Assembly: GCA_029864235.1 (NCBI GenBank)
Contig: JAOTTW010000006.1
Span: 1-40,238, forward strand
Direction of reading: 5' to 3'
Source of the DNA: Candidatus Nitrosopumilus sp.
GTDB lineage: Archaea > Thermoproteota > Nitrososphaeria > Nitrososphaerales > Nitrosopumilaceae
Length of the DNA: 40,238 nt
Position 1 is the stretch's first letter; every line of letters begins with the position of its first letter. Below are positions 33,697-37,675 of this stretch, in pieces. The notes beneath the pieces were generated by a model, which worked only from the letters and a program-made list of their open reading frames with translations, did not search any database and had not been told where the DNA came from. A program made the translations under genes and the position numbers.

Positions 33697-35739
33697 GTGG
33701 CGCTAAATCCTTTTACACAATTCGTTTTTGATCTGTTTATTCTATCAGCTATCATAATAACTGCATATACTTGTAACTTCTACTATCTTGCGTATCTCTC
33801 TAGAAGTAGAAAAGAAGTTATAGATACTACTGAAATGGGAACCCCTTCAATTACAATCCAACTCCCGATATATAATGAAAAATATGTTGCCAAAAGATTG
33901 GTGGATGCAGTATGTACTATGGATTATCCAAAAGAAAAGATGCGTATAATGGTATTAGATGATTCTGATGATGATACCGTTGATCTTTTAGGAACAATTG
34001 TGGATGAGTACAAAAAACATGGATTCCAAATTGAACATGTTAGAAGAGGTACAAGAAAAGGATACAAAGCAGGTGCATTAAAGTATGCAATGCAAACTAC
34101 GGATACAGAATATGTAGCAATTTTTGATGCAGACTTTATTCCTCCAAACTGGTTCTTAAAACGAGCAATAACTCATTTTGCAAAACCAAATATTGGATTA
34201 GTTCAATGTCGTTGGGGACATGTTAATGAAAACTATTCTGCAATCACTCAGGCACAAGCTCTTAGCCTTGACTTTCATTTTCTTATTGAACAAAAAGCAA
34301 AAAGCAATTCTCACTTGTTTATGAATTTCAATGGAACTGCTGGAATTTGGAAGCGAGACTGTATTGAGGATGCAGGTGGTTGGCATACTGCAACATTAGT
34401 TGAAGATCTAGACCTTAGTTATCGCGCACAAATGAAAGGTTGGAAATGTGTGTTCTTACCAGATATTGTAGTTGATGCCGAACTTCCAGTTCAGATGAAC
34501 GCTGCCAAGAGACAACAATTTCGTTGGGCAAAGGGCTCAATACAATGTGCACTCAAATTGTTAACTGATATTGTGGTAAAACGTAAAGTTGCAATAGAGA
34601 CAAAAATTCAGGCATTTATTCAACTTACACGACACATTGTCTATCCCTTAATGCTTGTACAATTTCTTGCACTGCCAATTCTTTTAGCCTCCAACATGAA
34701 TCTCTATGTTGTTAGTTTTATTCCTGCACTAACAATCGCAACATATCTTGCAATGGGACCCGGAGCATACATAATGATTATACAAAGCATGTATCATAAA
34801 TCTTGGAAATCAAAAGCAAAAATTCTTCCAGCACTTTTGGTGTATAATGCTGGAATGTCTGTAAATAATAGTGTTGCAGTATTTGATGCAGTACTTGGAA
34901 AGAAAAATGAATTTTTGAGAACTCCAAAATATGGAATAATTACTAAAGAAGATGACTGGCGAAATAAGGCTTATAATTTACCATTTACCAAAATGACATT
35001 ACTAGAAATCTTTTTTGGTGTATATGGGATGATTGGAATTTTTATCTCAATATTTTCAAACAATCCTATTTTTATTCCTATTATTGGGCTTCAAACGGTT
35101 GGATTTTTTTACATTGCATACATGAGTCTCTCCCATACTAGATTTAAAAGAAATAAATCAAGTAAAACTAGAATCTTAAGCAAGAGTGAGAAGATGGCAA
35201 ATACCGTTTACAGGCTTTCAATGGTTGGAATTATTGCAATTATTGTATTTGGTGCTGTGATGGCTTTTAATGGTTATAATTCTGATATTTACCCTCTAGA
35301 TAGAATGCGTGGGCATCTTGATGGTATTATTGGTTCGTCTGATCCTACTATTATTCAATCTCATCTTGTAGCAATCAAAGAGGACTTGGCAATAGTTTTA
35401 GATAATCTTCCTGATAATAACAAAAATCCCGTATGGATATTTCCTACAGAGTCTACAAACTTTTTAAGAATAGAAACTGATGTAAATACTTTGGTTGCAA
35501 GTATTGAAAAGATTTCTAGTATTCCAAAAGACAGCTCTGCATATCACACTGGAATGATGGATATTAGCGATAGAGCACTATTAATTAAAACAAACTTAAT
35601 GGATGCTACACCATACATGTATGTCAGCATTTCTAATGTTGTATTTAGTACAATTTGGATTGTTGCAATAATTGGTATATTTGCAGCACTCAAAAGAAAG
35701 AAAGAGCAATTCAAAGAAATTGATGATTCTGGTATCTAA
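33697..35739 (+). CDS. Membrane family-2 glycosyltransferase, cellulose-synthase-like
   Basis: A processive-type GT2 of 680 residues, probably adding sugars to a cell-surface polymer or glycolipid. TM1 is at residues 8-34. The catalytic domain has DDSDD (88-92), DAD (144-146), ED (236-237) and QQFRW (273-277), the QxxRW signature. Several TMs follow between about 300 and 485. Beyond that, a TM near 508-525, a helical extracytoplasmic stretch of roughly 120 residues and a last TM near 645-665 form an unusual C-terminal extension. The start is GTG 33697, about 30 nt after a TATA box. The stop interlocks with the convergent coiled-coil gene. Confidence 0.88.
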   Translation: MALNPFTQFVFDLFILSAIIITAYTCNFYYLAYLSRSRKEVIDTTEMGTPSITIQLPIYNEKYVAKRLVDAVCTMDYPKEKMRIMVLDDSDDDTVDLLGTIVDEYKKHGFQIEHVRRGTRKGYKAGALKYAMQTTDTEYVAIFDADFIPPNWFLKRAITHFAKPNIGLVQCRWGHVNENYSAITQAQALSLDFHFLIEQKAKSNSHLFMNFNGTAGIWKRDCIEDAGGWHTATLVEDLDLSYRAQMKGWKCVFLPDIVVDAELPVQMNAAKRQQFRWAKGSIQCALKLLTDIVVKRKVAIETKIQAFIQLTRHIVYPLMLVQFLALPILLASNMNLYVVSFIPALTIATYLAMGPGAYIMIIQSMYHKSWKSKAKILPALLVYNAGMSVNNSVAVFDAVLGKKNEFLRTPKYGIITKEDDWRNKAYNLPFTKMTLLEIFFGVYGMIGIFISIFSNNPIFIPIIGLQTVGFFYIAYMSLSHTRFKRNKSSKTRILSKSEKMANTVYRLSMVGIIAIIVFGAVMAFNGYNSDIYPLDRMRGHLDGIIGSSDPTIIQSHLVAIKEDLAIVLDNLPDNNKNPVWIFPTESTNFLRIETDVNTLVASIEKISSIPKDSSAYHTGMMDISDRALLIKTNLMDATPYMYVSISNVVFSTIWIVAIIGIFAALKRKKEQFKEIDDSGI

Positions 35740-37265
35740 GCAATATTCAATTCTTTTCTAATTTCATCTACAGCTCTAATTCCATAAATATCTCGTATTT
35801 GTTGAATTCTTATTATTTCTTTTAGCATGTCTCTGCCAATTGTATCAATCAAGATTGAAAAGACATCACTGAATCTAATTTCCCATCTATCCGCACAATC
35901 CAAAATTTTACTAATAGCCCATTGTCTAACCTCGTGAGGAAGTGGAATATTTTCTCCTGATTCTATTGTTATTCTGTCAAACAGATTAACAATATCTGCA
36001 GTTTGTAATGCCATGCTTTCAAGGTCTTTCACATCTCCATATTTTGATTCAGAGATCATTCTGATGTTTGATTGATATTCAGACAACTTCAACAAAGCCA
36101 TCACCTCTTTTGAAGAGTCACTTGAAGCCTTATTTGTTACATTCTTGACAGATTGGATTTCTTCAAATATTTTGTCAGATTTCTTATGAAATTCTGACGT
36201 TAATGCATCTTGTCTTCTCAACATTTCATTTGTTGAGGAAATCTTTTGCTCAATGCTGTTTGTCTTGTCATACACATTTTGCTTGAAATTAGAGAAATCT
36301 TCCTGAACTGATTTGAGACCTTCACCTACAAATGCAGTAGTATCAGCTCTATGTGCTAATGAACCAATCTCAGTCTCAATTTTATCAATTTTTCCACTAA
36401 GATCTCTGATTGATTGCAGATTTACACTGTTGACTGAATCTGCTTTTGAGGATATTGTCTCAAATTGTTTTTTTAAGCCATCAATAACTCCTCCGAGGGG
36501 TTCAATTTTAGATGCTTTTGATGAGATCCCATCAATTGTGACCTTGATTGCATCTAGTTCTGAACTTAGACCTGATGCTGAATTTACTTTATCTGAAATT
36601 CTTCCAATCTCTTCTCTGAAACTAGTGATCATCTGTGAATTAGATTCTAATTGATCTGTTTTTCCAGAAATAGTTTGAATGTTGTTTTTTAAATTGTCAA
36701 TTTCTGAACTAATCTCCAAAAACGAATCTGTCTTTCCTGAAATCTTTCTTAGATCATCTCTGACCTCATCAATTCTCTGTGCAATTTTTATGATCATCTG
36801 AGAATTGTTTCTAATTGAATTCATACTATTTTGAACTTGGGTAGACAAATCTTGAATTTTTGGTGATGATTTTTGTATTTCGTCAATCCTATTGACTTCT
36901 TCTTGTATTCTTGCAGTTTGGTTGTTGATTTTTGTAATGAGATTTGATTGTGTTCTTACTTGATTTAATCCTGCATAAAGTTTTTGAGTATCATCTTCTA
37001 ATAAATTAATTTGTTTTGATTGTTTTTGTATATTTTCAAGAGTAGATGTTAATGTATCTATCATTCCCTTTATGGCTACTAGAACTTTTTGATTATCGCT
37101 AAAAATTTTTGACATTGCCTTGATTTCTTTTTGTAATGCTTTGCTTGAATCTGAAACAGTTGCTACTTTTTTGAGTATTGCAGATGGAGTTGGTTCACGC
37201 TTGGTACTTTTTTTTGTTGCACCTGCTGTCTTTGTAGCTTTTTTCTTTGTTTCTTTGGTAACCAT
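35736..37265 (-). CDS. Long coiled-coil protein of unknown function
   Basis: A 509-residue protein. The N-terminal 30 residues are Lys/Thr/Ala-rich (KETKKKATKTAGATKKSTK), like a nucleic-acid-binding or histone-tail-like basic arm. Residues 40-380 are heptad-rich coiled coil with recurring units such as IRDLSGKIDKIETEIGSL. The last 120 residues form a distinct helical globular domain (EVMALLKLSEYQSNIRMISESKYGDV to RIQQIRDIYGIRAVDEIRKELNIA). No membrane segment or known signalling motif is seen. It may be structural, SMC-like in shape only. Confidence 0.75.
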   Translation of the reverse strand: MVTKETKKKATKTAGATKKSTKREPTPSAILKKVATVSDSSKALQKEIKAMSKIFSDNQKVLVAIKGMIDTLTSTLENIQKQSKQINLLEDDTQKLYAGLNQVRTQSNLITKINNQTARIQEEVNRIDEIQKSSPKIQDLSTQVQNSMNSIRNNSQMIIKIAQRIDEVRDDLRKISGKTDSFLEISSEIDNLKNNIQTISGKTDQLESNSQMITSFREEIGRISDKVNSASGLSSELDAIKVTIDGISSKASKIEPLGGVIDGLKKQFETISSKADSVNSVNLQSIRDLSGKIDKIETEIGSLAHRADTTAFVGEGLKSVQEDFSNFKQNVYDKTNSIEQKISSTNEMLRRQDALTSEFHKKSDKIFEEIQSVKNVTNKASSDSSKEVMALLKLSEYQSNIRMISESKYGDVKDLESMALQTADIVNLFDRITIESGENIPLPHEVRQWAISKILDCADRWEIRFSDVFSILIDTIGRDMLKEIIRIQQIRDIYGIRAVDEIRKELNIA

Positions 37266-37326
37266 ATATATTCAAAATAAATTCTAACGTTAAAAAAGTT
37301 GGGTCAAAAATAAAAAATGTAAAGAG

Positions 37327-37434
37327 TTACTTGTTGACAACTTCTGGTTCATGAAGTAACTCATGAAATGTTTTTTCTGCTAAACCATTAGCTGTTTCAA
37401 TAAACCCTTTTGGACAATATTCACATTGAATCAT
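37327..37434 (-). CDS. 35-residue C2H2-type zinc-finger-like microprotein
   Basis: ATG at 37434 to TAA at 37327-37329. The peptide has C4 and C7, F11, L18, H24 and H28: a CPKGF turn followed by a helix ending HELLHE. This is a C-x2-C ... H-x3-H arrangement like a classical C2H2 finger with a longer loop (16 instead of 12 residues). A TATA-like box on the - strand near 37466-37458 and a 25-bp palindrome at 37435-37459 lie directly upstream, so the mRNA would be leaderless. It may bind nucleic acid or a protein; function unknown. Confidence 0.7.
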   Translation of the reverse strand: MIQCEYCPKGFIETANGLAEKTFHELLHEPEVVNK

Positions 37435-37459
37435 ATAGTACGGTATAGTACCGTACTAT
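37435..37459. promoter_or_regulatory. 25-bp palindrome, likely operator of the C2H2 microprotein gene
   Basis: The arms ATAGTACGGTA (37435-37445) and TACCGTACTAT (37449-37459) are perfect inverted repeats of 11 bp around a 3-bp centre. The element abuts the ATG of the 35-residue gene and lies just downstream of, or touching, its TATA-like box (37458-37466). That is where a dimeric repressor would block transcription initiation. Confidence 0.65.
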
Positions 37460-37675
37460 TAATAATTGGGTAATTCTAAAGTAACCTATTCTGCAGTCAG
37501 ATACCCCAGGTCATATCTCTACATAATTTTCAGATGACCTATTCATCACTCTGCAATTAGATTAAGATCAATGAGCATAAAGACCTTCAATTAGAAATAA
37601 TATGAAAAAATTCTAAAATTTTTGAAATTTCCTTCACTGCATAACTATTTTTAAACAAATTTGCCAAGTCAAAAC
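37460..37675. other. Intergenic stretch, about 215 bp
   Basis: The region separates the microprotein promoter from the antiporter gene. It holds the antiporter TATA box at 37648-37655 and a weak inverted repeat (AGGTCAT 37508-37514 / ATGACCT 37534-37540). I see no convincing small gene or structured RNA in it. Confidence 0.5.
37648..37655 (+). promoter_or_regulatory. TATA box for the antiporter gene
   Basis: The sequence tttttaaa is centred about 24 nt before ATG 37676, favouring that start over the TTG at 37661, which would lie upstream of the transcript start. Confidence 0.55.

Follow-up and report, generated by a model that had tools for sequence, protein, structure and literature searches.

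The window analysed here, 40,238 nucleotides on contig C57 of a 1.68-Mb Nitrosopumilaceae genome, carries on its minus strand an open reading frame for a 35-aa microprotein (MIQCEYCPKGFIETANGLAEKTFHELLHEPEVVNK), followed by a co-directional coiled-coil gene (Table 1). The CAT at 37432–37434, which is the minus-strand ATG of the short frame, adjoins a 25-bp palindrome that reads ATAGTACGGTA-TAG-TACCGTACTAT on the plus strand, with perfect 11-bp arms around a 3-bp centre, exactly as the original prediction had described it. That prediction had also placed a TATA-like box at 37458–37466; the box is present on the minus strand, but we find it at 37457–37464. Its spacing from the ATG is as expected for a leaderless archaeal start and predicts one at 37434, in which case the palindrome would cover the initiation region of the promoter. 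Among inverted repeats with arms of at least 11 bp and a spacer of at most 10 bp, the palindrome is the sole one in the window; dinucleotide shuffles of the window hold a mean of 0.32 such repeats and up to 3, and by itself the palindrome could have arisen by chance. Its conservation, and its recurrence at a few specific genes throughout the family, set it apart.

Table 1. Features around the 35-aa microprotein gene, in window coordinates; offsets are relative to the microprotein ATG.
Feature	Position	Strand	Basis
35-aa C2H2-like microprotein ORF (stop included)	37327..37434	-	ORF and homologues
Perfect palindrome, 25 bp, 11-bp arms flanking TAG	37435..37459		Sequence, shuffles
Conserved operator core TACSGTA-N3-TACSGTA, -21 to -5	37439..37455		Conservation
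TATA box TATTAATA, -30 to -23	37457..37464	-	Sequence and column conservation
Second conserved dyad GGTTAC-N6-ATTACC, upstream of TATA box	37469..37486	-	Column conservation
Co-directional coiled-coil gene downstream of microprotein	35736..37265	-	Neighbour in 158/164 loci; co-transcription not established

The consensus upstream of microprotein genes is TATTAATAG-TACSGTA-N3-TACSGTA-N4-ATG. The best site lies at −21 in 96 of 105 distinct microprotein loci, and 101 of the 105 carry it with at most one mismatch, bearing out the expectation that the palindrome would be conserved upstream of orthologues. This conservation, together with the position, suggests that the palindrome is an operator, and a protein bound to its core, after the TATA box, would be placed to block initiation, as had been proposed. 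The heptamer is near-symmetric, and its two copies are inverted in some genomes and direct in others; because both arrangements occur, recognition of heptamers spaced 10 bp apart is more likely than recognition of a hairpin. An RNA hairpin is disfavoured both by the direct-repeat variants and by the TATA spacing, with which the site precedes the predicted transcript start. The palindrome is also kept in several genera in which the antiporter gene is not found upstream. The second dyad, upstream of the TATA box, is a possible site for a second regulator; similar dyads (GGTNAT...ATTACC) lie upstream of radA in three genomes (G006, G033 and G023), so that such a regulator may be shared. Between the microprotein and coiled-coil genes, the window holds at 37266–37326 a CCTAACTTTTTT-like tract that recurs in many relatives and could be a terminator or a piece of the coiled-coil gene's promoter.

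The microprotein gene is real, as its homologues in 156 of 171 sampled Nitrosopumilaceae genomes attest, nearly always in single copy; the class sample outside the family gave no convincing homologue, with four weak matches at E 0.004–0.009. The two Cys and two His ligands of a classical C2H2 zinc finger are present and conserved, in line with the finger originally proposed: C4, C7, H24 and H28 are invariant in 105/105 distinct loci, which were selected by a C..C...H...H pattern, and a 29-row alignment of profile matches gives the same C/C/H/H, with F11 and G17 likewise invariant. The spacing is C-X2-C-X16-H-X3-H, compared with C-X2-4-C-X12-H-X3-5-H in the classical finger, which makes the middle spacer four residues longer. 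AlphaFold predicts a beta-hairpin and a helix (strands at residues 2–3 and 10–11, helix at 15–26, mean pLDDT 88.8). Foldseek returned zero matches for this model, a very short query that is probably too short; curated C2H2 family models gave no match, Pfam only Fer2_2 below the cut-off and NCBIfam nothing, and a PDB sequence search found zinc fingers only at weak E values of at least 0.022, none of them significant. The predicted model suggests a putative zinc finger of C2H2-like design, with one finger only and a Cys-His spacer that exceeds the classical length. Work on a C2H2 finger from an archaeal virus found no homologue of its family in Thaumarchaeota (PMC3541406).

Across 180 family genomes we count 474 copies of the perfect operator, TACSGTA-N3-TACSGTA, typically two to four per genome, against 10 matches for the reversed pattern used as a control; in 14 sampled genomes that belong to the order's other families the core was not found. 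On G148, the one complete chromosome inspected site by site, four perfect sites mark the starts of a winged-helix gene, the microprotein gene, radA and the gene for a second zinc protein, and occur nowhere else. Apart from the site of the second zinc protein, which is just upstream of the TATA box, each falls between that box and the start codon. The window's own genome has perfect sites at the microprotein gene, at radA (contig C3) and at the winged-helix gene (C74), while its second zinc protein (C96) has a variant operator whose spacer is 4 bp. A palindrome that falls within the shuffled-window range could, taken alone, be a product of chance or a mobile repeat that regulates nothing, a view to which we now give next to no credence: the excess over the control and the fixed positions at one small set of genes, seen in some 20 genera, rule out chance, and viral contigs hold no relatives of the microprotein or the winged-helix protein, which argues against a mobile element. 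That a small regulon under one operator, with about four sites per genome, exists in Nitrosopumilaceae is well supported, and we regard it as very likely. The surmise that the locus might belong to an undescribed small regulatory unit is supported. The operator recurs beyond the window's single site and its regulon includes radA; a search of open-licence papers turned up no earlier description in Nitrosopumilus of a radA regulon, of the operator or of the microprotein.

The radA product matches the Rad51 family of Pfam (PF08423, 2.1e-89) and HHH_5 (4.2e-10), corresponding to a Rad51/RadA ATPase core with a HhH N-terminus, and scores above cut-off against the NCBIfam RadA equivalog NF003301 (2.3e-151). 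An operator within one mismatch is found in 31 of 40 distinct radA upstreams, and radA of a few genera (L146, L152 and L153) has a weak operator or none; at both radA and the winged-helix gene the operator overlaps the start codon or closely precedes it. One genome of genus g2, G026, has two radA copies (G026:C1:790924 and G026:C1:2062561) with nearly identical upstream regions. The second zinc protein is about 65 aa long (mostly 54–76 aa), has a CxxC...CxxH pattern and is encoded divergently from trpE, with the operator at about −48 in most loci, directly upstream of a TTTATA box. We considered trpE as the target and set it aside, given that the site lies at a near-fixed −48/−49 from most of the divergent zinc-protein starts and that a separate TATA-like box lies closer to the trpE start.

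The remaining member of the set, a protein of about 115 aa, is the candidate regulator. AlphaFold predicts a winged-helix core with pLDDT above 90, and Foldseek places the model closest to AspA (2.8e-4) and CzrA (5.9e-4), a winged-helix fold shared with AspA/PadR-like and ArsR regulators. No Pfam or NCBIfam family matched the protein above cut-off, and a profile search against solved structures gave nothing significant, with AspA at E 0.17. The gene is present in 158 of 171 sampled family genomes, with one weak match in the class sample outside the family, and it carries the operator (at most one mismatch) in 51 of 52 distinct upstreams. In several genera its promoter has a third heptamer one turn upstream of the operator, an arrangement that would fit oligomeric autoregulation.

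Operator presence follows the winged-helix gene more closely than the microprotein. Counting genomes sampled in both searches, perfect sites occur in 121 of the 122 genomes that have the winged-helix gene and in 1 of the 7 that lack it (Fisher p = 8.6e-9), compared with 116 of 120 genomes with the microprotein and 6 of 9 without it (p = 0.007), p-values that overstate independence because the genomes are related. The genomes negative for the winged-helix gene fall in about four genera, namely g2, g15, g10 and an incomplete g4 genome. In genus g2 (G005 and G026), radA and the microprotein gene keep only degenerate heptamers, and a search even at E ≤ 10 gave no significant winged-helix match, the best (0.125) lying inside a long unrelated frame; this fits decay of the heptamers after loss of their binder, and alternatively another reader of the site or a diverged gene may be involved. 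We consider it quite probable that the winged-helix protein binds the operator and is the autoregulated controller of the regulon.

The original prediction had offered instead that the microprotein feeds back on its own operator, and more broadly the microprotein, or another protein, might be the DNA-binding factor within the same regulon. Its predicted C2H2-like fold and the operator at its own gene would suit such a role, as would genus g2, which retains the microprotein and degenerate heptamers where the winged-helix gene goes undetected. The co-occurrence counts above run the other way, since perfect sites persist in two-thirds of the genomes without a detected microprotein and are missing in four genomes in which the microprotein is present and the winged-helix gene is not, some of the assemblies in these counts being incomplete. 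One finger of 35 aa is, moreover, small for a specific 17-bp site of two heptamers. We therefore hold microprotein feedback to be improbable; the microprotein is a target of the regulon, perhaps an effector, and unlikely to be the operator-binding factor.

With the winged-helix protein as the binder, a simple circuit can be proposed. A dimer or oligomer of this protein would most likely bind TACSGTA-N3-TACSGTA; bound downstream of the TATA box and ahead of the start codon, it would keep the pre-initiation complex from loading or prevent initiation itself, and so block the predicted leaderless transcripts of radA, of the winged-helix gene and of the 35-aa microprotein. Repression is the sense we propose because a protein sitting in this interval should hinder polymerase assembly or escape. 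At the gene for the ~65-aa zinc protein, where the operator is just upstream of the TATA box, the bound protein might block TFB/BRE contact or might activate. Archaeal activators also use positions just upstream of the TATA box, and the operator at about −48 there could accordingly mean that the winged-helix protein activates, or acts as a dual regulator; the blocking position that the operator takes at the other three genes (radA, winged-helix and microprotein) makes this unlikely. Our main reading, to which we assign a probability of about 0.7, is that a winged-helix autorepressor controls radA and small zinc proteins through one operator, in an SOS-like arrangement unrelated to LexA.

The trigger is a separate matter. 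Since radA is the only target of known function, DNA damage or the state of replication would most naturally govern the regulon. The metal-responsive or general stress control first suggested for the microprotein is not supported: the one partner whose function is known is radA, and no metal-transport gene was found at a perfect site. Repression would most plausibly be relieved on DNA damage or replication stress, whereupon RadA and the small zinc proteins would rise together; an SOS-like trigger by DNA damage is plausible, at slightly less than even odds. Cell-cycle or replication state might instead control the regulon, with radA and the zinc proteins made periodic through the winged-helix protein. 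RadA expression is periodic in the Sulfolobus cell cycle and radA is not strongly UV-induced in S. solfataricus (PMC2246294), and a small, fixed target set is equally compatible with such control; radA is, however, damage-induced in Halobacterium (PMC2556686), and we rate cell-cycle control as the less probable of the two, on the unlikely side. At somewhat less than even odds, one may picture a LexA-unrelated SOS-like response in which the family-specific winged-helix autorepressor governs RadA and single-finger zinc microproteins, the latter serving as partners of RadA or DNA or as a signal that releases the repressor.

Archaea have been stated to have no LexA homologues and no classical SOS regulon (PMC2246294). 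The proposed circuit resembles bacterial SOS (LexA/RecA) in having a common operator at the recombinase gene and, by our reading, at the regulator's own gene, with operator sites over the core promoter; it differs in that the winged-helix candidate, at about 115 aa, matches no LexA family and is without a peptidase domain, and in that the Nitrosopumilaceae targets are far fewer and mostly small zinc proteins. In Deinococcus, the targets of DdrO include recA and ddrO. The operator sequence and regulator of the DdrO/IrrE system are unlike those of Nitrosopumilaceae, and the likeness lies in a small set of damage-response genes that a repressor keeps shut until genotoxic stress (PMC8533742). Sulfolobus Sta1, a described activator of the radA paralogue SSO0777 in the damage response (PMC2556686), is likewise a DNA-binding protein devoted to an archaeal gene of the radA family, but it binds an unrelated sequence and activates a paralogue, whereas here the main radA is targeted and the site positions suggest repression. 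The Halobacterium radA1 motif TTTCACTTTCA and the Sulfolobus Orc1-2 DDRE (ANTTTC) are promoter motifs of damage-responsive genes (PMC2556686, PMC9738581); they too are short motifs common to archaeal damage-responsive genes, radA1 among them, but their sequences and regulators are unrelated to the operator described here. AspA, the centromere-binding protein of pNOB8, and ArsR repressors such as CzrA offer the nearest solved folds to the winged-helix protein, at about 20% identity; the winged-helix protein differs in having no significant sequence-family match and neither a plasmid-partition context nor a demonstrated metal site.

The archaeal damage regulators in the papers cited here (Orc1-2, Sta1 and the halobacterial radA1 motif) come from Sulfolobales and haloarchaea. 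An operator common to radA and a candidate autoregulated winged-helix gene, in an abundant family of marine and freshwater ammonia oxidisers, would allow a precise and cheap test for an SOS-like circuit in these nitrifiers, for which promoter oligonucleotides and one protein are ready assay material. It also gives the single-finger zinc microproteins of Nitrosopumilaceae a first functional context.

Beyond the core targets, one-mismatch matches to the operator are near background. Such sites do start a further family of about 130 aa in four genera (G003, G009, G016 and G019), whose members (L370, L371, L372 and L077) share MPKxGFxSITVSExxYxKF and a C-terminal CxxC-x4-CxH cluster; this family is a possible fifth member of the regulon. 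Two perfect operators, L073:2082 and L081:3001, lie at genes outside the core set: an orphan of 339 aa, whose contig is 4.5 kb long, and a 43-aa ORF close to the end of its contig. Two genomes, G117 and G134, have five perfect sites each.
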